From NCBI RefSeq assembly GCF_029626265.1, contig NZ_JARUBN010000001.1:6823001-6887000 (forward strand): a stretch of 64,000 nucleotides of DNA, read 5' to 3'. The notes under the pieces are model-generated. The model saw nothing but the letters and a program-made list of their open reading frames with translations, searched no databases and was not told the origin of the DNA. A program made the position numbers and the translations under genes. The stretch is from Micromonospora sp. WMMD1102. GTDB lineage: Bacteria; Actinomycetota; Actinomycetes; Mycobacteriales; Micromonosporaceae. Positions 9,981 through 49,302 of the stretch are shown here, in pieces; the first letter of the stretch is position 1; each line of letters opens with the position of its first letter.

Positions 9981-10667
9981 TCAGCCGCCGGCCCCGCCGG
10001 GCGCGACCAGTCCGGTCTCGTACGCCAGCATCACCAGTTGGGCCCGGTCCCGGACACCGAGCTTGGTGATGATCCGGCTGACGTGGGTCTTGGCGGTCAG
10101 CGGGCTCATCCGCAGCGCCCGGCCGATCTCGGCGTTGCCCAGCCCACCCGCCACCAGGGCCAGCACCTCGCGTTCCCGGGCGGTCAGCTCGGCGAGTCGT
10201 TCCACCGAGCCCTGCCGGGGCCCGGGGCGACGACCGAACTCCTCGATCACCCGTCGGGTCACGCTCGGGCTGAGCAGCGCGTCCCCGGCCGCGACGACCC
10301 GGACGGCGTGGCACAGCTCCTCCCGGCTCACGGTCTTGGCCAGGAAGCCGCTCGCTTCGGCCAGCAACGCCGAGAAGATGTACTCGTCGATCTCGTACGT
10401 GGTGAGCACGATGACCCGTACCCCGGCGGTGGCCGGATCCGCGCTTATCCGCTCGGTGGCGGTCAGGCCGTCCAGCACCGGCATGCGGATGTCCAGCAGT
10501 GCGACGTCGGGTCGGAGCTGCCGTACCTGGCGCACCGCGTCCGCGCCGTCGGCCGCCTCCGCCACCACCTCGATGTCGCCGTCCAGCCCGAGCAGACCGC
10601 GTAGCCCGGCCCGGACCAGCGGCTGGTCGTCGGCGAGCAGCACCCGGATCGGCAACCGGTTCACCAC
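9981..10667 (-). CDS. NarL/LuxR-family response regulator
   Basis: A 228-residue response regulator with a receiver domain (IRVLLADDQPLVRAGLRGLL; phospho-acceptor D59 in DVALLDIRMP; conserved T in IVLTTYE; K in FLAKTVSREEL). A LuxR HTH sits at about 155-215 (LTAREREVLALVAGGLGNAE, then MSPLTAKTHVSRIITKLGVR). Two adjacent GTG codons can start it. The second, at 10664, gives a GTGA overlap with the stop of the histidine kinase. The pair forms a two-component system of the DesKR/NarL type. Confidence 0.88.
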   Translation of the reverse strand: MVNRLPIRVLLADDQPLVRAGLRGLLGLDGDIEVVAEAADGADAVRQVRQLRPDVALLDIRMPVLDGLTATERISADPATAGVRVIVLTTYEIDEYIFSALLAEASGFLAKTVSREELCHAVRVVAAGDALLSPSVTRRVIEEFGRRPGPRQGSVERLAELTAREREVLALVAGGLGNAEIGRALRMSPLTAKTHVSRIITKLGVRDRAQLVMLAYETGLVAPGGAGG

Positions 10668-11839
10668 CCCGACGCGGCGCGAGCCGGCACGACACCGACG
10701 CGGGCCGGGGCACCGGCGAGGGCGGCGAGGGCGGCGACGCCATCGTCGGGAGAAGCGGGGGCGGGGACGTCGGCGAGGGCGGGGGCGGGGACGTCGGCAA
10801 GAGCCGGAGCAGCGGCGTCGGCGGGGGCGTCGACCGTGCGGGGCAGCCAGGCCCGGACGGCGTACCCGCCGTCGGGCAGCGGGCCGGCGTGCAGCCTCCC
10901 GCCCAACCCGGTGGCCCGTTCCCGCATCCCGGTCAGACCATGTCCGGCGGGTGCCGTGCCGGTGCCGGCGCCCCTGCCGTCGTCGCGGACGTCGAGGGCG
11001 ACGCCGTCCGGGGCGTACCGGAGGGTGAGGGTGACCGACCGGGCGTGCGCGTGCCGCAGCACGTTGGTGACGGACTCCTGGGCGATCCGGTACACGGTCA
11101 GGCCGACGGTGGGCGGCAGCGGCCGGGGCTCGCCCTCGCGGTGCAGCGTCGTCGTCAGGCCGGCCTCGGCAGCCCGGTCCAGCAGCGTCCCGAGCTGCGT
11201 CTCGTCCGGCGCAGGCCGCAGCTCCGGCCGAGATCCCAGCTCCGGCCGAGATCCCAGCTCCGGTGGGGAGGCCGGGTCGGGTGCGGTGGCGGCGGGATCG
11301 GGCGCACGGAGCAGGTGTACCGCCCGGCGCAGTTCGTCGATCGCGTCCACGTTGATCCCCCGGGCGCTGTCCAGCAGGTCCCGGGCGGCGTCCGGGTCGC
11401 GCCGGACGAGTTCCCGGGCCAGGTTGAGCTGGATCCCGACCACCGCGACGGTGTGCGCGGTGACGTCGTGCAGTTCGCGGGCGATCCGGATCCGTTCGGC
11501 GAGAACCGACCGGGCGGACTCCCGGGCCCGTTCCGCCTGCTCGGCGGCGAGCCGGGCCTCGGCCTCCTTGCGGTAGAGCTCAGCGGTGCGGAACGCGGTG
11601 CCGGCCACCAGGGCCAGGGCCAGCATCGTGGCCTCGCGGAGCAGGCCGTCGAGCATCCGGAGCGGTTCGACTCCGGCGTTCAGCACCCAGCCGGTGGAGA
11701 CCAGCAGAGCCGACACGCCGACCGCCGTACCGATCAGGATCTGGCCCGCCCGGGTGACCGCGTAGAGCGGGACCAGCAGCGAACAGATCGGCGAGATGCT
11801 GGGAAAGTCGGTCAGGTTGTAGCCCAGCACGGCGACCAT
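10661..11839 (-). CDS. Sensor histidine kinase with truncated N-terminus
   Basis: The reading frame begins to look like a kinase at MVAVLGYNLTDFPSISPICS. From the ATG at 11839 it encodes about 392 residues: roughly three hydrophobic segments, a HisKA_3 region with the H box (ARELHDVTAHTVAVVGIQLN), and an ATPase domain (N box AQESVTNVLRHA, G box DDGRGAG, G2 box HGLTGMRERATGLGG). Members of this group normally carry four to six N-terminal helices. Here the first part has been replaced by the end of an SRPBCC gene, so the sensor region is incomplete and there is no obvious ribosome binding site. The kinase core is intact. The tail carries repeated ALADVPAP units, and the loop before the ATPase carries three ELGSRP-like repeats. 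Confidence 0.7.
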   Translation of the reverse strand: MVAVLGYNLTDFPSISPICSLLVPLYAVTRAGQILIGTAVGVSALLVSTGWVLNAGVEPLRMLDGLLREATMLALALVAGTAFRTAELYRKEAEARLAAEQAERARESARSVLAERIRIARELHDVTAHTVAVVGIQLNLARELVRRDPDAARDLLDSARGINVDAIDELRRAVHLLRAPDPAATAPDPASPPELGSRPELGSRPELRPAPDETQLGTLLDRAAEAGLTTTLHREGEPRPLPPTVGLTVYRIAQESVTNVLRHAHARSVTLTLRYAPDGVALDVRDDGRGAGTGTAPAGHGLTGMRERATGLGGRLHAGPLPDGGYAVRAWLPRTVDAPADAAAPALADVPAPALADVPAPASPDDGVAALAALAGAPARVGVVPARAASGW

Positions 11840-11844
11840 GCCAG

Positions 11845-12397
11845 GCGCGTTCGACGCTGGCCTGGTCGACGTCGGCGCCGAAGAGGTGGTGGCCGAGGAC
11901 CAGCACGCTGCCCCGGTCCACTCCGGAGTGCAGGAACCGGTAGAGCGCGTCGTCGGTGCGTACCCCGAAGTAGGTCGGCAGGCCGGCGATGTCGACGACT
12001 CCGTCGACCGGCGGCAGGCCGTCGACGGTGAGCCGGGCCGGTGTGCCCTCGGTGATCCCGCCGGTGATGCCGAACGCGTCGGCCACGGCCGCCCAGACCT
12101 GTTCCGGCTCGCCGGCACCGGGCCGGAACGCGGCGGCCGGGACGCCGTGCCGGCCCGGGAAGTGGCGCAGGTACGAGGCGAGGCTGGCCAGGTACATGTC
12201 CCAGCCGACCCCCATCGCCTCGTACTCGGTCTCCCAGTTGTCGCCGAGCACCCCGCTCTGCACCAGTGCAGCACGGTGCTGCCCTGGTCACGGCTGAACC
12301 AGGAGTCGATGCCGGGGCCGGTGGCGATCGCCGCCCAGACCTGCTCCGGCGTCCCGGCCAGTTCGATTTCCCTGCACAGTTCGAACTCGTGTCCCAC
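11845..12397 (-). pseudogene. SRPBCC (START/AHSA1-like) protein, internally deleted, frameshifted and 3'-truncated
   Basis: A GTG at 12397 with an upstream GGAG starts GHEFELCREIELAGTPEQVW and ATGPGIDSWF, the typical opening of an AHSA1-type SRPBCC protein. The next residues, DQGSTVL, belong to a position some 60 residues further on in the family, so the middle is missing. One base is then lost near 12272, and the C-terminal part continues in another frame (LVQSGVLGDNWETEYEAMG, YLRHFPGRHGVPAAAF, PPVDGVVDIAGLPTYFGVRT, LVLGHHLFGADVDQASVERA). The last segment of the family is replaced by the histidine kinase. It probably once formed an operon with the HTH regulator just upstream, a common ArsR-SRPBCC pairing. 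Confidence 0.75.
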
Positions 12398-12435
12398 GGT
12401 GACGGTCTCCAATGCACTGGCTTGCGGAAACGGAG

Positions 12436-12480
12436 CGGGCGGGCGCGGGGCGGGGCGGGGCGGGGGCGGGGGCGGGGCGG
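12436..12480. repeat. G-rich tract with quadruplex potential
   Basis: Nine runs of three to five G, separated mostly by single C, lie on the plus strand between the HTH regulator gene and the SRPBCC remnant. Four or more G-runs with one-base loops fit a G-quadruplex motif. On the transcribed (minus) message it would be a C-rich leader. Confidence 0.75.
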
Positions 12481-12484
12481 ACGG

Positions 12485-13093
12485 CTAACCGGGCTGACCG
12501 GTGCTCTCCCGGTCGGTCGGGACGTGCGGGTGCAGCGCGACCACCACCCGGTGCTCCCGGCCGCCGGGCGCGGACTCGTCGTGGTATCTGCTGACCAGCC
12601 TGGTGACCGTCGCCGCCAGCTCCTCGGCGAACGCGGCCCGGTCGGTCGCGGAGGCGAACCGGACCTGGGCGTCGATCGCGAACGTCGCCACCCGCCGGTC
12701 GGCCCGGTCGGCACCGGTGATCAGCGCGCCGACGTCCTGGACGAGTCGGGCCGCGACCGCCAGCAGCCACCGCGCCGACAGCCGGTCGGGCGACCTGCCC
12801 GGGTTCGGTCGCACGGCGGAGAGCGCGGCCGGGGAGATCACGTACGAGGCCGCGGTGGCCCGCATCACCCGTTCGGTGACGTTGCCCTTGCGGCGTTCCT
12901 CCTGGAGTTCGATCAGTCCGTGCTGTTCGAGCGCCCGGAGGTGGTAGTTGACCTTCTGCCGGGCCAGGCCGACCCTGCCGGCGAGCATGGTGGCCGACGC
13001 CGGCTCGGCCAGCTCGGCCAGCAGCCGCGCCCGGATCGGGTCGAGCGACGCCTCGGCCGCCGCCGGATCCTCGATCACTGTGATGTCGAACAT
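12485..13093 (-). CDS. ArsR-type winged-helix transcriptional regulator
   Basis: A 202-residue regulator. The N-terminal winged helix (residues 18-75) reads LDPIRARLLAELAEPASATM, LAGRVGLARQKVNYHLRALE and HGLIELQEERRKGNVTERVM. The C-terminal half is an uncharacterised helical domain. In the wider family such proteins are encoded upstream of SRPBCC proteins, and here the decayed SRPBCC gene follows it by about 90 bases on the same strand. A palindrome 17 bases upstream of its ATG may be its own operator. No metal-binding cysteines are present, so it is not a metal sensor. Confidence 0.82.
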   Translation of the reverse strand: MFDITVIEDPAAAEASLDPIRARLLAELAEPASATMLAGRVGLARQKVNYHLRALEQHGLIELQEERRKGNVTERVMRATAASYVISPAALSAVRPNPGRSPDRLSARWLLAVAARLVQDVGALITGADRADRRVATFAIDAQVRFASATDRAAFAEELAATVTRLVSRYHDESAPGGREHRVVVALHPHVPTDRESTGQPG

Positions 13094-41785: not shown

Positions 41786-41837
41786 CGGCCCCCGTCGCCC
41801 GGTGGGCGAATGAGCACAGCACAATCAGGAGGTGCCG

Positions 41838-42509
41838 ATGACCGAGCCGGGAGTGCCCGAGGTGATGGCCGAGCTGGCCGCGTTGGACGACCCGAAGATG
41901 CGCGAGGCGAACGAGAGACACGGTGACGACCACGGGGTGAACCTCGGCCAGCTGCGCGCGCTGGCCAAGCAGCTGAAGACGCAGCAGGACCTCGCCCGCC
42001 AGCTCTGGCGGACGGAGGACACCGCGGCCAGGCTGCTGGCGCTGCTGATCTGCCGCCCGAAGGCGTTCGACCGTGCCGAACTCGACACCATGCTGCGGCA
42101 GGCGCGCACGCCCAAGGTGCACGACTGGCTGGTCAACTACGTGGTGAAGAAGAACCCGCACGCCGAGGAGCTGCGGCTGACCTGGTTCGCCGACCCGGAT
42201 CCGGTGGTCGCCAGCGCCGGTTGGGCCCTGACCAGCGAGCGGGTGGCGAAGAAGCCGGAGGGGCTCGACCTGCGCGGACTGCTCGACACCATCGAGGCGG
42301 AGATGAGGGACGCCCCGGATCGTCTCCAGTGGGCGATGAACAGCTGCTTGGCCCAGATCGGCATCGACCACCCCGGACACCGCGCCCGGGCGATCGACAT
42401 CGGCGAGCGCCTACAGGTGCTCAAGGACTACCCGACGTCGCCCGGCTGCACGTCCCCGTACGCGCCCGTCTGGATCGGGGAGATGGTGCGCCGGCAGCGG
42501 GGCGGCTGA
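41838..42509 (+). CDS. DNA alkylation repair protein (AlkD-like HEAT fold)
   Basis: A 223-residue all-helical protein starting at ATG 41838, five bases after AGGAGG. EVMAELAALDDPKMREANER, NLGQLRALAKQLKTQQDLAR, VHDWLVNYVVKKNPHAEELR and DRLQWAMNSCLAQIGIDH fit the PF08713 family, HEAT-repeat glycosylases that remove alkylated bases. The AlkD catalytic Trp/Asp/Arg arrangement cannot be confirmed by eye, and some family members lack glycosylase activity. Confidence 0.8.
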   Translation: MTEPGVPEVMAELAALDDPKMREANERHGDDHGVNLGQLRALAKQLKTQQDLARQLWRTEDTAARLLALLICRPKAFDRAELDTMLRQARTPKVHDWLVNYVVKKNPHAEELRLTWFADPDPVVASAGWALTSERVAKKPEGLDLRGLLDTIEAEMRDAPDRLQWAMNSCLAQIGIDHPGHRARAIDIGERLQVLKDYPTSPGCTSPYAPVWIGEMVRRQRGG

Positions 42510-42597: not shown

Positions 42598-42747
42598 GGC
42601 GCACCCCTCCGCGCCGGCGTGACCGCCGCCGAGTCACCCGTCAGGGTGAGCCGGGGACCCAGGTAGGTGGGGTGAGTCCGCAACCGCGGTAGGGGCTTGT
42701 TCCGTCCCGAACCCGTCAGCTAACCCGGTAGGCGGGCGACGGAGGGA
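42598..42747 (+). promoter_or_regulatory. Cyclic di-AMP riboswitch (ydaO/yuaA type)
   Basis: The leader contains the conserved blocks of the actinobacterial ydaO/yuaA class in order: GAGTCACCCG, CCGGGGACCCAGGTAGG, GGGGTGAGTCCGC, ACCGCGGTAGGGGC, and AACCCGTCAGCTAACCCGGT followed by AGGCGG. It ends immediately before the start of a secreted wall-hydrolase gene. In actinomycetes this class switches off resuscitation-factor and peptidase genes when c-di-AMP is high, so the context fits. A -35-like TTGACC at 42564 and TAGTCT at 42573 lie upstream. Confidence 0.92.
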
Positions 42748-42752
42748 CATGC

Positions 42753-43781
42753 ATGACGGGATCCACCCGCCGGCGGCTGCCGCTGGCCCTGGCCCTGATC
42801 GCCACGTTCGGCGCGCTCACCGGGGCGGCGCTCCGGCCGGACGTCGCGGAGGCGAACAGCCCCGCCGCACTCGGCGACGAGGGCGACACACCACTCTTAC
42901 GCGACGTGCTCGAATCCACCGGCCGAGGCTACCTACAGGCGAAGAACGCGCTGGCCAACGCCAAGGCCCGGCAGGCGAAGATCGCCGCCGAGCTGCGCCG
43001 GGTGGAGGCACGGATCGCGGAGCTGCGCCCCCGGGTCGAGGAGGTGGCCCGGACGGCGTACCGGACGGGTCGGATCGGCCCGGTGCTGGCCCTCCTGCAC
43101 AGCAGCTCGGCCGACGAGCTGCTGGAGCGCGCCCGTCGGCTGGAGGCGGTGGCGCTGCAGGACGACGACGCGCTGCGCGCGCTCGGCGAGGCTCGGGAGC
43201 GGGCCACCCGGGCGAAGCGGGCGCTGGACGCCCAGGTCGTCGAGGAGCGCCGGCAGCTCGCCATCATGCTGCGGCAGAAGCAGGCCGCCGAGCGGGCCCT
43301 GGCCCAGGTCGGCGGGGCCTCCACCGGAGGATTCGTCAACGCCAGCTCGCCGCTGGCCCGGCCGGCGCCACGGGCCGGCGACGGCTCCTGGCCGCCGCAG
43401 TCGTGCAGCCGGCCCGACCCGACCACCACCGGCTGCGTCACGCCGCGAACCCTGCACGCCTTCGCCGAGGCGCGCCAGGCCGGCTTCACCAGGTTCGCCG
43501 GCTGCTACCGCTCCGGCGGCCCGTACGAGCACCCGAAGGGGCGGGCCTGCGACTTCTCCGCCGAGCCGGGCGGGTTCCGTGGCGCCGCCAGCGGAGCCGA
43601 CCGCACCTACGGCAACAATCTCGCCGCGTTCTTCGTCCGCAACGCCGACCGGATCGGCGTGCTCTACGTGATCTGGTACCGGCAGATCTGGTTACCGACC
43701 ACCGGCTGGAAGTCGTACGGCGGGGCGCGCGGCGACCCGTCCAGCGACCACACCAACCACGTGCACCTGTCGCTGGTCTGA
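42753..43781 (+). CDS. Secreted coiled-coil protein with M15-like peptidase domain
   Basis: A 342-residue exported protein. A signal peptide (RRRLPLALALIATFGALTGA) is followed by a PcsB/RipA-type coiled coil (about 55-190: NALANAKARQAKIAAELRRV, RAKRALDAQVVEERRQLAIM). A short linker leads to a C-terminal domain (about 215-342). That domain carries a zinc-site pattern like the D,D-peptidase M15 family, HPKGRACDFS (HxxGxAxD) and a final SDHTNHVHLSL. It is probably a peptidoglycan hydrolase or a regulator of one. The c-di-AMP riboswitch in its leader ties it to envelope and osmotic homeostasis. Confidence 0.85.
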   Translation: MTGSTRRRLPLALALIATFGALTGAALRPDVAEANSPAALGDEGDTPLLRDVLESTGRGYLQAKNALANAKARQAKIAAELRRVEARIAELRPRVEEVARTAYRTGRIGPVLALLHSSSADELLERARRLEAVALQDDDALRALGEARERATRAKRALDAQVVEERRQLAIMLRQKQAAERALAQVGGASTGGFVNASSPLARPAPRAGDGSWPPQSCSRPDPTTTGCVTPRTLHAFAEARQAGFTRFAGCYRSGGPYEHPKGRACDFSAEPGGFRGAASGADRTYGNNLAAFFVRNADRIGVLYVIWYRQIWLPTTGWKSYGGARGDPSSDHTNHVHLSLV

Positions 43782-43825
43782 CGCCCCGGGAGAACAGCCC
43801 CGGGAGACAAGCCCCGGCCAGGTTG

Positions 43826-45961
43826 TCACGGTGTGCTGGCGTCGCGATGGGTCACCTGGTAGGTGGCATCGACCGCATCGGTCTCCAGCAGCACCGTCAG
43901 CAGGCCGTCCGGCAGCGTGCAGGTGAGGGTGCGGTCGGCCGACGGGCTGAGGGTGTAGCAGTGCCGGATCCCGCTCTCGTCGAAGATCGAGATCGTCGCG
44001 TCGCCGGTCCCCGAGATGCGCTGGTAGCGGAACGCCTCGCGCACCGCGTGCTGGTCGGCCGGCACCGTGAAGCAGAACCCGAACCGCTCGCTGCCACTGG
44101 TGACCGTCAGGCCCGCCGGGTCGCGGGTCAGGACCGGGCAGGACGGCGGGGCGGCCACCCGCCGGAAGGCGAGCTGGTAGTCACCGGTCGGCTCCCCGCT
44201 CGCCTGGTTGTCGGCCACCACGAAGAACGGCGCGGTGCCGGTGAGCTCGCAGGAGTACTGGTAGAGCTGGAAGGCGTCACAGACGTAGCCACCCGTGGCG
44301 TCGAACACCGTCAGTTGGGGGTTCGCCACCCCGGCCGCGTCGCCCGGGGTCAGCCGTACCACCTTGGAGCCGGCGGCGCTGGGCAGTTCGAAGCAGTCGA
44401 CCTCGCCCACCACGCCGAACTGTCCATGCTGGACCGTGCCGTCGTCACCGGCCGTGGCGCAGCCGGACGGGGCGACCGGGAGGAACGAAACCGCGTAACT
44501 GACGTCGTTGTCGACGATCGATCCCGGCGAGGAGCCGACCACCAGGGTGTACCGGCCGGCGGCGGGGAACTGGCAGTACGGCCAACCGGGGCAGACCGTC
44601 GTCCCGGTCCCGGTGCTGTCGACGATCCAGGCGGACACCTCGTTGTAGACGGTCGGCGCCACGAAGGTCAGGATCCGGTCACCGGCACGGCCCCGGAACG
44701 GCTGGCACTGGGTACCCACCGGCGACAGTTGCCGTACCGAGAGGGTCGGGCCGGTCCACTCCGTTCCGGTCGCCGGCGCGCAGCCCGCGTTGCGGATCAG
44801 CGCGGTCACCGCCACCTGGTAGGACTTCTCGTCCCAGGTCTGGCTACGCACGACCAGCGTGTAGTCACCGACCGTCGGCAGCGCACATGCGCGGCTCTGC
44901 GAGTACTGGTCGCAGATCTTTGCTCCGGCGTCGTCGTAGAGGTCCCACCAGAGGAGCTGGCTGTCGGCGATCCGCACCAGGACCGGGCCGGCCGCGCTGG
45001 TACGGATCTTGTGGCAGGCGAGGTCTCCGTCGAACCGCACGATGCCGGTACCGGTGTTGTCGCCCGGATCGCCGAACGCGGCGGGCCGGAGCAGCGGGCA
45101 TCCGGCCGACTGGGACAGCCGGGACATCCGCAGCGTGTACGTGGCCTCGGCACCGTAGAGCTGGGTGAGGAAGAAGCGGTAGGGGCCCGCGCTGTCGAGC
45201 CGGCACTCCGTCGTATCGGCGATCGGACAGACCGGCTGCGAGTTGGCATCGAGTATCGCGCCGCGCACGCTGTGTCCGAGCGCCCGCAGCTGCAAGACGC
45301 TGCCGACCGGTTGGTTGAACCGGTAGCAGTGCCCCGCCGAACCGTTCGGCAACGTGGCAGTGATGCCGGGTGACGCGAACGAGAAGAAGGCGTTGGGCAA
45401 CTGGGTGCAGGAGGACGGCGTCTTCAGCGAGTCGACGGCCACGGTGTAGTCGTTGGTGCCGCCCCAGTCGACCGTCACGGTGATCGTGTAGGTGCCGACC
45501 GCGCCCAGCTGGCACTGCGAGGAGGACCACAGATAGCAGGCGTGGGTACCGTCGGGCGCCGTGACGGCGGCGTGCACCGGTTCGCCGTCGCCCTCGTGGA
45601 AGGTCGCGTAGAGGACGTCACCGTTGCGCTGCGTCGTCACGGTGTAGAGGTGCCGCTCGTCGCCGCTGATCGACGGGCAGGTGACGATCTGCCCGAAGGG
45701 CAACGACCCGCCGCACGGCTCGGCGCCGGCCTTCGGCGCCGCCTTGGCCGGCGTGACCGCGACCGGAGTCGGCGTGGCCGCGACCGGCGATGGCGCGGCA
45801 GCGGACGCGGTCGGGGAGGCCGCGGCCCCTGGCGTGGGCGTCGTGGCCTGGGCCGCCGCGGGCGCGGCAAGACCGGCGGAGAGTACCGCCAGTGTCGCGG
45901 CGAGCGCCGCCCAGCCGGTGCGGTGGAAGGATTTCGGACGCATGGCATCGACGTGACCCAC
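43826..45961 (-). CDS. Secreted protein of six tandem four-cysteine modules
   Basis: A 711-residue protein from GTG 45961 (or ATG 45943). A signal peptide (about 1-38) and a Pro/Thr/Ala linker (about 38-80) precede six modules of about 102-107 residues, starting at C83, C185, C288, C394, C501 and C608. Each has exactly four cysteines: the first opens the module, the second lies 12-28 residues on (HCYRF, ACHKI, DCFEL), the third sits in a VC/ICD-type turn, and the fourth, 6-13 residues later, is followed by L/F and GxYxLxV. The fold looks like a bacterial pre-peptidase-C-type beta sandwich. I know of no characterised homologue. It may be a wall or matrix protein. Confidence 0.8.
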   Translation of the reverse strand: MGHVDAMRPKSFHRTGWAALAATLAVLSAGLAAPAAAQATTPTPGAAASPTASAAAPSPVAATPTPVAVTPAKAAPKAGAEPCGGSLPFGQIVTCPSISGDERHLYTVTTQRNGDVLYATFHEGDGEPVHAAVTAPDGTHACYLWSSSQCQLGAVGTYTITVTVDWGGTNDYTVAVDSLKTPSSCTQLPNAFFSFASPGITATLPNGSAGHCYRFNQPVGSVLQLRALGHSVRGAILDANSQPVCPIADTTECRLDSAGPYRFFLTQLYGAEATYTLRMSRLSQSAGCPLLRPAAFGDPGDNTGTGIVRFDGDLACHKIRTSAAGPVLVRIADSQLLWWDLYDDAGAKICDQYSQSRACALPTVGDYTLVVRSQTWDEKSYQVAVTALIRNAGCAPATGTEWTGPTLSVRQLSPVGTQCQPFRGRAGDRILTFVAPTVYNEVSAWIVDSTGTGTTVCPGWPYCQFPAAGRYTLVVGSSPGSIVDNDVSYAVSFLPVAPSGCATAGDDGTVQHGQFGVVGEVDCFELPSAAGSKVVRLTPGDAAGVANPQLTVFDATGGYVCDAFQLYQYSCELTGTAPFFVVADNQASGEPTGDYQLAFRRVAAPPSCPVLTRDPAGLTVTSGSERFGFCFTVPADQHAVREAFRYQRISGTGDATISIFDESGIRHCYTLSPSADRTLTCTLPDGLLTVLLETDAVDATYQVTHRDASTP

Positions 45962-46105
45962 AGCAAACCCCCGTTACCCTCCGTCAAAATGCAGAGTCAC
46001 AGGATTTTGCCATGTAGATATATCACTCGACAGTCCTCATTCGGACGCCGATGTCTGGCGCGGCGGCCAAGACCTCCGGCCAGGCGGACCGTCGGGATAG
46101 GACGG

Positions 46106-48481
46106 TCAGCTCGGCTCGCCCTCCGGAGCGCGCCGGACCGGGGCCCGACCGGCGGGCTGGGCCGGCTGCGGACCGGTCGGCCGGAACGGCGGGATCGGCC
46201 GGGTCACCTCCTCCAGGCAGGTGACCAGGACCTTCTCGCCGTGGTGCAGCAGCTCCAGGGCGTCGTCCGGTTCCCCGTCGCGCAGCGAGTACGTCGCCTC
46301 GTGCCGCCGTACGTCGACCCGCATGTGCACGCCCCGGTAGCGCAGCGAGAACTCCAGCCGGTCGATCCGGCTCGGCAGCCGGGGGGTGAAGGAGAGCGTC
46401 TCGGTGTGGTCGCGCATCCCGCCGAAGCCGGCGACCAGGGCGATCCAGGCCCCGGCCAGCGAGGCGACGTGCACGCCGTCCCGGGTGTTCTGGTTGAGGT
46501 CGTGCAGGTCCATCAGGGCCGCCTCGCCCAGATAGTCGTGCGCGAGTTCGAGATGCCCGGTCTCGGCCGCGAGTACCGCCTGGGTGCAGGCCGACAGCGA
46601 CGAGTCGCGTACCGTCCGCCGCTCGTAGTAGGCGAAGTTGGCCGCCTTCTGCTCGTCGGTGAACGCGTCGCCGCGCCAGTGCATCGCCAGCACCAGGTCG
46701 GCCTGCTTGATCACCTGCTTGCGGTACAGGTCGAAGTAGGGATAGTTCAGCAGCAGCGGGTACTGCTCCGGCGGGGTGCCGGCGAAGTCCCACTCCTGGA
46801 ACCGGGTGAAGCCCTCCACCTGCGGATGTACGCCCAGCTCCCGGTCGTACGGGATGTGCATGTCGTGTGCGGCGTCCCGCCAGGAGGCCGTCTCCTCGTC
46901 GTCGACGCCGAGCCGCCGGGCCTCCTCGCCGTGCCGGACGGCGGCCTCGGCGGCGGCCAGCAGATTCCGCTGGGCCATCAGGTTGGTGTAGACGTTGTCG
47001 TTCTTCACCGCCGTGTACTCGTCCGGCCCGGTCACCCCGTCCAGGTGGAACCGGCCGTCCCGGTCGTGGTGCCCGAGCGAACGCCAGAGCCGGGCGGTCT
47101 CCACCAGCAGCTCCAGCCCGACCTCGCGCTCGAACTGCACGTCGTCGGTCGCCTGCACGTACCGGCGTACCGCGTCGGCGATGTCGGCGGCGACGTGGAA
47201 CCCGGCGGTGCCGGCCGGCCAGTACGCCGAGGTCTCCTGGCCCCGGATGGTCCGCCACGGGAAGGCGGCGCCGCGCAGGCCGAGGGTACGGGCCCGCTCC
47301 TGGGCCAGGTGCAGGGTGGAGTGCCGCCAGCGCAGCGCGGAGGCGACCGCCGGGGGCAGGGTGTAGGTCAGCACCGGAAGTACGAACGTCTCGGTGTCCC
47401 AGAACGCGTGCCCGTCGTACCCCGGTCCGGTCAGCCCCTTGGCGGCGATCGGCCGCAGTTCGGCGCGGGCGCCGGCCTGGAGCACGTGGAAGAGTCCGAA
47501 CCGGACCGCCTGCTGCACCTCCGGGTCGCCCTCGACCCGGACGTCGGAGTCGTCCCAGAAGGTGTCGAGATAGCGGCGCTGCTCGCCGCAGAGCCCGTCC
47601 CAGCCGGAGAACTTGGCGCCGGCCAGTGCCGCCGCCACCTGGTCGCGCAGGGCCGGGCGGGACCGCCGGCTGGACCAGCCGTAGGCGACGAACTTGACCA
47701 GCCGGAGCTGCTCGCCCGGCTTGATCACGGAGGTGACGGTGGTCCGCGCCCAGTCCTCGTACGCCTCGGTGCCGACCAGCTTGCGTTCCGGCCCGTGCAC
47801 CTCGTGGCTCATCGAGACGGCGACCCGCAGCCCGCTCGCCTTGGTGCGGTGGATCAGCAGCGCACCGTCGGCGTGCACCAGGCGCTCCTCGGCCTGCAAC
47901 GGCGACTCCAGCACCGCCGCCACCCGGGGGTCCCGGCTCTGCGCCGGCAGTTGTTCGTTGGCGACCAGCTCGGACTGGATGATCAGCCGCATCGGGCCGT
48001 CGACCGGCTCCACCCGGTATTCGATCGCCGCCACCGAGCGCTGGGTGAACGAGACCAGCCGGGTCGAGCAGATCCGCACGGTACGCCCGGCCGGGGAGCG
48101 CCACTGCACCGACCGTTGCAGGGTGCCGCCGCGCAGGTCGAGCACCCGTTCGTGGCTGAGCAGTTCGCCGTACCGGACGTCGAACGGCTCGTCGTCGACG
48201 AGCAGCCGGATCGGCTTGCCGTTCGTGACGTTCACGATCGTCTGGCCGGATTCGGGGAAGCCGTAGCCCGCCTCGGCGTACGGCAGCGGTCGCAGCTCGT
48301 AGAAGGAGTTCAGGTAGGTCCCCGGCAGGCCGTGCGGCTCGCCCTCGTCCAGGTTGCCGCGCAGCCCGATGTGCCCGTTGGAGAGCGCGAACACGGATTC
48401 GGACTGGGCGAGTACGTCAAGGTCGAGCCGGGTCTCGCGGACGTGCCACGGCTCGACGGGATAGGCCCGCTCCCGGATCAT
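46106..48481 (-). CDS. GH65-family disaccharide phosphorylase
   Basis: A 791-residue enzyme of the maltose/trehalose/kojibiose phosphorylase family. An N-terminal beta-sandwich (about 1-260; ALSNGHIGLRGNLDEGEPHG is typical) leads into an (alpha/alpha)6 barrel. GHAFWDTETFVLPVLTYTLP and the general acid E488 in DGVTGPDEYTAVKNDNVYTN are seen, together with KQADLVLAMH for phosphate/sugar binding. It phosphorolyses an alpha-glucoside to beta-glucose 1-phosphate. The neighbouring HAD protein overlaps by four bases and should convert this product to glucose 6-phosphate. The specificity (trehalose, maltose or kojibiose) cannot be fixed by eye. Confidence 0.92.
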   Translation of the reverse strand: MIRERAYPVEPWHVRETRLDLDVLAQSESVFALSNGHIGLRGNLDEGEPHGLPGTYLNSFYELRPLPYAEAGYGFPESGQTIVNVTNGKPIRLLVDDEPFDVRYGELLSHERVLDLRGGTLQRSVQWRSPAGRTVRICSTRLVSFTQRSVAAIEYRVEPVDGPMRLIIQSELVANEQLPAQSRDPRVAAVLESPLQAEERLVHADGALLIHRTKASGLRVAVSMSHEVHGPERKLVGTEAYEDWARTTVTSVIKPGEQLRLVKFVAYGWSSRRSRPALRDQVAAALAGAKFSGWDGLCGEQRRYLDTFWDDSDVRVEGDPEVQQAVRFGLFHVLQAGARAELRPIAAKGLTGPGYDGHAFWDTETFVLPVLTYTLPPAVASALRWRHSTLHLAQERARTLGLRGAAFPWRTIRGQETSAYWPAGTAGFHVAADIADAVRRYVQATDDVQFEREVGLELLVETARLWRSLGHHDRDGRFHLDGVTGPDEYTAVKNDNVYTNLMAQRNLLAAAEAAVRHGEEARRLGVDDEETASWRDAAHDMHIPYDRELGVHPQVEGFTRFQEWDFAGTPPEQYPLLLNYPYFDLYRKQVIKQADLVLAMHWRGDAFTDEQKAANFAYYERRTVRDSSLSACTQAVLAAETGHLELAHDYLGEAALMDLHDLNQNTRDGVHVASLAGAWIALVAGFGGMRDHTETLSFTPRLPSRIDRLEFSLRYRGVHMRVDVRRHEATYSLRDGEPDDALELLHHGEKVLVTCLEEVTRPIPPFRPTGPQPAQPAGRAPVRRAPEGEPS

Positions 48482-49302
48482 CGGTGTCTCCTCGCGGTCA
48501 CCGGACCACCTCCGGCCCCCCGCCCGGCTCCGGGCAGTAGTTCGGACAGGTCCCGCACCACGATGTCGGCGCCGTGCTCGCGCAACGCGTCGGCCTGGCC
48601 CACCCGGTCGACCCCGACCACGAAGCCGAAGTTGCCGGCCCGGCCCGCCGCCACCCCGGCCAGCGCGTCCTCGAAGACGACTGCCTGGTCGGGGCGTACC
48701 CCGAGCAGTTCGGCGCCGGCCAGGAAGGTGTCCGGATGCGGCTTGCCGCGCAGCCCGCGCGCCCGGGCGACGACCCCGTCCACCCGGGCCTCGACCATCG
48801 GTTCCAGGCCGGCGGCGGAGATCACGTCGGCGGCGTTCGCGCTGGCCGAGACGACGGCCCGGCGCAGCCCGGCGGCGCGGGCGGCGTGCAGGTAGTCCAC
48901 CGATCCCTGGTACGCCAGCACCCCGTCGGTGCGGATCCGGGCGAGCAGGATGACGTTCTTGCGGTTGCCCACCCCGTGCACGGTGTCGGCGGTCGGCGGG
49001 TCGTCCGGTTCGCCCTCCGGCAGGGTGATCTGCCGGGATGCGAGGAAGGTCCGCACCCCGTCGGCCCGGGGGCGGCCGTCGACGTACCGGTTGTAGTCGT
49101 CGCCCGGGTCGAACGGCCGGAACGGTTCGCCGGTGATGGCGGATCGCCGCCGGAGGAAGTCGTCGAAGGTCTCCGCCCAGGCGGCGTTGTGCACCCGGGC
49201 GGTCTGGGTCAGCACGCCGTCGAGGTCGAAGAGGCATGCGGTCACATGCGCGGGTAGGCCCAACACGCCTAACAACCTAACCGGGAAGGCATCCCGGGGC
49301 AC
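48478..49302 (-). CDS. Beta-phosphoglucomutase-like HAD phosphatase
   Basis: A 274-residue HAD-superfamily protein. The nucleophile and acid are the two Asp in CLFDLDGVLTQTARVH. The cap has FRPFDPGDDYNRYVDGRPRA. SASANAADVISAAGL supplies motif II, K in GLRGKPHPDTFL motif III, and VFEDALAGVAAGRAG motif IV. The long form with RxDGV(R/Q)xFLASR is the type encoded with GH65 phosphorylases. The start may be the 49302 codon or a GTG nearer the DLDGV motif. The ATGA overlap makes the two genes one catabolic operon. Confidence 0.9.
   Translation of the reverse strand: MPRDAFPVRLLGVLGLPAHVTACLFDLDGVLTQTARVHNAAWAETFDDFLRRRSAITGEPFRPFDPGDDYNRYVDGRPRADGVRTFLASRQITLPEGEPDDPPTADTVHGVGNRKNVILLARIRTDGVLAYQGSVDYLHAARAAGLRRAVVSASANAADVISAAGLEPMVEARVDGVVARARGLRGKPHPDTFLAGAELLGVRPDQAVVFEDALAGVAAGRAGNFGFVVGVDRVGQADALREHGADIVVRDLSELLPGAGRGAGGGPVTARRHR

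Follow-up and report, generated by a model that had tools for sequence, protein, structure and literature searches.

The question raised by this locus is what kind of protein is encoded by the minus-strand frame at 43826..45961 of the window (the whole stretch of 64,000 nucleotides from Micromonospora sp. WMMD1102 that was analyzed), whose 711-residue product carries exactly 24 cysteines in six blocks of four, and whether its modules represent, as an earlier note proposed, an undescribed repeat family. A recount agrees with the number and grouping of the cysteines, and the module starts given in that note (residues 83, 185, 288, 394, 501, and 608) are the first cysteines of the six blocks. The frame is translated here from a GTG at 45961; an ATG at 45943 (residue 7) is a possible alternative start. 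Residues 7–39 (45845..45943, on the minus strand like all parts of the gene given below) form a putative signal peptide, assigned by eye from an Ala-x-Ala-like end before TT, which we take to reflect the usual cleavage rule. Residues 40–82 (45716..45844) form a Pro/Ala/Thr-rich linker, delimited from the sequence and from the full-length model, in which pLDDT is <50 for residues 1–80. There follow module 1 (C83, C95, C142, and C150; 45419..45724), module 2 (C185, C212, C245, and C253; 45110..45418), module 3 (C288, C316, C350, and C359; 44792..45109), which is the module that was modeled alone, module 4 (C394, C419, C457, and C463; 44471..44791), module 5 (C501, C523, C561, and C571; 44150..44470), and module 6 (C608, C630, C668, and C681; 43829..44149), after which there is no further domain; modules 2, 4, and 5 were assigned from sequence. 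The gene is single-copy in its own genome (8.9 Mb in 8 contigs), where one further match alone was found (E 0.002, 28% identity), over residues 13–107, which are mostly leader and linker.

The regularity of the array is far from that of chance. When 24 cysteines were placed randomly in residues 80–711, C1-C1 spacings as even as those of the protein arose in 2 of 200,000 trials, all six C3-C4 spacings fell within 6–13 in 19 of 200,000, and the two regularities never occurred together (0 of 200,000). Searching with a module profile, an approach that the earlier note had also proposed, recovered relatives as well as the six modules of the window protein: when the profile was made from 107 modules taken from other proteins, it picked out six domains in a row in the window protein, with i-Evalues of 8e-18 to 8e-25, and in a control with 200 shuffled window proteins the best whole-sequence E was 0.0045. 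The six-module observation is confirmed as real and well conserved. The details given for it need revision, since the proposed signature VC-x(5-12)-C-[LF]-x4-GxYxLxV fits none of the six modules as written; a gap of 5–12 residues between Cys3 and Cys4 is found in all six, but Val precedes Cys3 in only three. From Cys4, C-x-[LF] is present in all six modules, and a corrected signature, C-x-[LF]-x3-G-x-Y, fits four of them (modules 1–4). The uniform four-cysteine rule likewise holds for the six blocks but not for their topology, in that the Cys1-Cys2 spacing is 12 residues in module 1 and 22–28 in the other five, and in the full-length model Cys2 of module 1 (residue 95) is on the first strand (92–99), in contrast to its position on strand 2 in modules 3 and 6.

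The pattern extends to other actinomycetes. A contig scan with the single window protein as query gave no relative, and one with alignment A2 gave three; in a sample of 21 genomes five were matched, one of which (G007) was left out of the relatives, its match covering just residues 18–102, mostly leader and linker. A plasmid search gave 25 records (E up to 1), 22 of them from Streptomyces; five of the 25 were opened, and the 3 Paraburkholderia records were left out. The named relatives are from Paractinoplanes rishiriensis, Actinoplanes liguriensis, and Catenuloplanes japonicus, in addition to those on Streptomyces plasmids. Among 18 proteins in all, there are six modules in the window protein, seven in thirteen, nine in two, eight in one, and five in one. 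The seven-module forms that are array-terminal number eight (G004, G009, G012, G022, G030, G038a, G038b, and P. rishiriensis), and the two from G038 are side-by-side paralogues (L037:7825-10281 and 10295-12805, minus strand) whose listed frames are 13 bases apart. A C-terminal TIG domain is over the cut-off in L013 and P0002, and there are sub-cut-off matches to the NCBIfam ZirU-family model in L088, L024, L038, and L013. In the G083 protein (L087:3927-9008, minus strand), two-Cys and four-Cys modules alternate and are followed by a DUF7619 region (about 1325–1600) that is common to plasmid proteins annotated as CARDB, Ig-like, or Calx-beta. Neither in the window protein nor in its 17 relatives is any catalytic domain over the curated Pfam cut-off. 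As a separate observation, two Streptomyces relatives (L015:5662-8841 and L016:5584-9546, plus strand) end in three repeats with LDTRDGTG-like motifs, for which no Pfam family is above the cut-off.

The same set of proteins provides information on how the cysteines may pair. Profiles made without the tested protein, from training modules cut by counting cysteines in fours, found 128 modules in the 18 proteins, 111 of which have Cys in all four alignment columns. Another 13 are hits to module 1, where Cys1 and Cys2 are just 12–13 residues apart, so that Cys1, and twice also Cys2, is outside or beside its aligned column; in these all of the cysteines are present in the sequence itself, as they are in one hit that is short at its end. 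The other three modules, all in the G083 protein, retain Cys1 and Cys2 but have neither Cys3 nor Cys4, and not one of the 128 is missing just one member of the latter pair. This joint absence supports a pairing of Cys1 with Cys2 and of Cys3 with Cys4, although the three modules, alternating as they do with four-Cys modules, may reflect one event followed by duplication, which weakens the argument. The strand positions point in the same direction: in the model of module 3, Cys3 (residue 66) is on a strand at 64–68 and Cys4 (75) on the next strand at 72–77, while Cys2 (32) is on a strand at 30–37. The claim of two disulfides in each beta-sandwich module can therefore be retained for the beta-sandwich, as modeled for module 3, and two cystines per module are probable from the joint absence of Cys3 and Cys4. 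In a hand-cut set, from which two Streptomyces cysteine groups outside the array (S1450_m8 and Scad_m8) had been removed, 112 of 113 modules have exactly four cysteines and one has five, a count that is partly circular because these modules were cut by counting cysteines in fours. VKOR-family proteins function in oxidizing folding systems, and the presence of a VKOR-family gene in the genome of the window makes such a system plausible there.

The structure of a single module, a prediction that the earlier note had also suggested, was modeled for module 3 alone and has eight strands at a pLDDT of 90. This predicted fold matches the PPC/collagen-binding jelly-roll, PPC/CBD chains occupying VIA ranks 1–7. 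None of the curated models assigns the window protein to a characterized family, the Pfam scan giving PPC (PF04151) no match and 0 families at E up to 10; what was found instead is a distant likeness to PPC. Among the 17 relatives, PPC exceeds its gathering cut-off in one, the L013 protein (38.8 bits against 25.9, the best stretch, 72–133, being within its first module), matches below the cut-off in four (P0002, 22.8; P0005, 20.3; L019, 18.0; and L023, 16.2 bits), and is absent from 12; sub-cut-off Pfam matches in relatives other than these were disregarded. A profile-profile alignment of the modules with PPC is co-linear over 82 columns, with a probability of 88.8 and an E of 2.5e-6 in a single comparison made without an unrelated beta-sandwich control. 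The modules thus look like distant relatives of the PPC/collagen-binding jelly-roll, and the description of them as an undescribed repeat family is not supported in that form; given this distant relationship to a binding domain already known from bacteria, their shape is no novelty. That a separate, undescribed family has merely converged on a PPC-like jelly-roll, the view to which the earlier note leads, is unlikely in light of the relative that exceeds the PPC cut-off, the co-linear alignment, and the exclusive occupation of the seven leading VIA ranks by PPC/CBD chains. Some other matches were set aside. When 29 modules were searched singly against Pfam, 11 families turned up, each represented by one member and among them PPC (E 0.1), an outcome attributed to chance; profile hits to Xaa-Pro dipeptidase and to designed "Pizza" proteins were short or compositional; and matches to phage proteins (86 records, best E 0.09) and to PHROGs (best E 0.0091, Hoc-like) were weak and confined to short stretches.

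The predicted fold also matches that of the lysozyme inhibitor PliG (4dzg), which raises the idea that the modules inhibit peptidoglycan-cleaving or other exported enzymes and so protect the wall or tune its turnover. We consider this highly unlikely, because PPC/CBD chains score higher than PliG and because an inhibitor would not usually take the form of an array of differentiated modules, with TIG or DUF7619 tails in some of the related proteins. PliG differs in being, according to its PDB entries, a periplasmic g-type lysozyme inhibitor of Gram-negative bacteria. Nor does the neighboring frame at 42753-43781 favor it. This 342-residue frame, which is apparently secreted and convergent with the array gene, has no Pfam match and no match in the relatives' loci that were compared. 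Directly before it is a c-di-AMP (ydaO/yuaA) riboswitch at 42617-42749 (plus strand; 80.6 bits, E 3.8e-17).

The wider neighborhood contains no convincing partner for the array gene. On its other side are genes for a GH65 enzyme, a HAD hydrolase, and a multicopper oxidase; the GH65 glycoside hydrolase/phosphorylase frame (46106-49237) overlaps that of the HAD hydrolase (48478-49302), both on the minus strand, and the two are presumably a sugar-phosphate mutase pair. The only near gene matched in the relatives' loci is an alkylation-repair gene at 41832-42509, which has counterparts near the G038 homologues, the other matches being to window frames at 10–15, 24–26, 53–54, and 63–64 kb. In three relatives (G009, G022, and A. 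liguriensis), PNP_UDP_1-family and dnaX genes are near the array gene, and two of these three also have genes for recR, a deaminase, and a solute-binding protein nearby. A small frame of about 176 residues that looks like a secreted protein or lipoprotein, with no Pfam or NCBIfam family over the cut-off, adjoins the array gene both in G009 and in G022 and is about 6 kb from it in G004 (L018:7285-7815, minus strand; L035:9245-9778, plus strand; and L040:866-1798, minus strand, are the loci of such genes); its homologue in the genome of the window (G000:C1:7891714-7892259) is about 1 Mb from the array gene, and it is therefore not a fixed partner. MFS transporter genes are upstream of the array gene in two Streptomyces, and no counterpart is found at the threshold used beside the close relative L013. 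No promoter-like site was found in 43600-46200.

Occurrence bears on a further possibility, that the protein belongs to the coat or matrix of a spore, sporangium, or aerial surface and that its modules attach to one another or to a polysaccharide of the matrix, as opposed to a substrate outside. The examined relatives for which the organism is known are from Paractinoplanes, Actinoplanes, Catenuloplanes, and Streptomyces, which are spore- or sporangium-forming genera, and a disulfide-rich array with no recognized enzyme domain would suit such a role. However, the gene is sporadic, being present, with its own genome included in each count, in 2 of 7 genomes of the genus, 7 of 26 in a family sample with one genome per genus, and 3 of 60 in a class sample searched with the module profile (these counts rest on smaller genome and plasmid collections). 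It is thus not generally needed for sporulation, and no recognized development gene is present among the neighbors that were scanned. A coat or matrix function restricted in this way is rather unlikely, a little less so than convergence.

The arrays also record something of their history. When scored against seven relatives, modules 1, 2, 3, 5, and 6 of the window protein best match positions 1, 2, 3, 6, and 7, so that its modules 5 and 6 are equivalent to modules 6 and 7 of the seven-module proteins. Module 4 is a hybrid: ancestral module 4 accounts for its front half, which scores 150 for position 4 (29 for the next best), and ancestral module 5 for its back half, which scores 82 for position 5 (54 for the next best). 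Consistent with this, family profile A2 breaks in the window protein at model positions 494–590 but is unbroken in the seven other proteins matched. It is therefore probable that about one module length was deleted in frame from a seven-module ancestor. The approximate junction is at residues 448–457 (44591..44620, minus strand); a tandem ACCGGG in the DNA there is consistent with recombination at a conserved D-x-x-G turn. Modules at the same position in different proteins have a mean identity of 45.0% (147 pairs) as compared with 28.8% for different positions (882 pairs), indicating that the positions are old and differentiated. Misassembly was considered as a source of the hybrid, but the collapse of near-identical repeats is unlikely when modules at different positions in relatives are only about 29% identical.

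Considering these results together, we hold with moderate confidence that the protein is a secreted rod of six PPC-related jelly-roll modules, pinned by disulfides, with a binding or coat role outside the cell and a seven-module ancestry. Binding outside the cell, or a function in a coat, is probably the most likely role, given a leader, differentiated copies of a fold that binds extracellular polymers in the members studied so far, TIG or DUF7619 tails in some relatives, and no recognized enzyme. The protein would be exported by its signal peptide, and the Pro/Ala-rich linker would span or leave the wall. Within each module, a Cys1-Cys2 bond would link the N-terminal segment with strand 2 (with strand 1 in module 1), and a Cys3-Cys4 bond would staple the hairpin of strands 5 and 6, so that the disulfides might give the stability that some PPC domains obtain from calcium. 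The array of nonidentical modules could then make multivalent contact with an extracellular polymer, either protein or polysaccharide. We tentatively extend this to enzyme-free PPC-like arrays as a group, in which two disulfides may replace calcium, ligand surfaces may be specific to position, and length may change by recombination within modules at the D-x-x-G turn to leave working hybrids; this generalization is possible, but less probable than the reading of the window protein itself.

What is already known here is the fold and, from a protease-attached domain, the idea of the cystines; what is new is such an array without a recognized enzyme. A domain known mainly as a protease helper that grips the substrate is thereby extended to stand-alone arrays. 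The natural variants (three two-Cys modules, one hybrid, and arrays of 5 to 9 modules) are well suited to tests of the disulfides and of module number, and the module profile could give a name to proteins such as the Streptomyces relatives, which are now annotated as "hypothetical protein", "Tat pathway signal protein", or "cell envelope integrity protein TolA".

Searches of the open-license literature brought up neither a comparable actinomycete protein nor a function described for any protein that consists solely of this domain, and the closest known system is PPC (PF04151), which includes the collagen-binding domains of ColG and ColH (1nqd and 3jqw) and the PPC domain of Bacillus anthracis collagenase (5sv5). 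PPC is typically, although not obligatorily, attached to a secreted peptidase, whereas a peptidase domain is over the cut-off in neither the window protein nor any of its 17 relatives; the modules also differ in having four fixed cysteines, the window protein in having no Pfam match, and the family in having 5–9 tandem copies and no recognized protease domain. The accessible part of one report describes the PPC domains of some proteases as binding and swelling collagen (PMC7426729). For an ion-channel jelly-roll domain, the part of the account at hand gives Tk-SP, the Clostridium collagen-binding domain, and PliG as fold neighbors, the same as those of the present modules, and notes calcium sites in the first two (PMC12664993). 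In a comparison set of 19 actinomycete PPC domains (from 27 listed, 22 of them over the cut-off, with the eight lowest left out), 12 have no cysteine and 7 have two or four, none with the spacing of the window modules. Four of these (L043, L049, L057, and L061, three of them from genomes of one genus) have a Cys pair 10–11 residues apart near the Cys3/Cys4 hairpin of strands 5 and 6 but, unlike the window modules, no Cys1 or Cys2; in L043 the second Cys is about two residues from the position of Cys4, as read by eye from the alignment. The disulfides treated in the available portion of PMC5821440 are those of a protease catalytic domain, and it adds nothing on those of PPC. A nearer precedent is found in the M9A collagenases. 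According to the accessible part of a study of the Grimontia hollisae enzyme, the mass of a C-terminal segment containing its PPC domain fits two disulfides, four cysteines are common to the PPC domains of seven other M9A collagenases, and the segment still binds collagen when calcium is absent, in contrast to the Hathewaya domains (PMC6168687). The mass and the conserved cysteines indicate that a four-Cys, two-disulfide PPC domain is already in print, a second respect in which the description of the modules as an undescribed family is not supported, the likeness being drawn from that paper's description. In the M9A collagenases, however, the PPC domain is a single domain behind a metalloprotease, whereas the window protein is an array free of any recognized enzyme.
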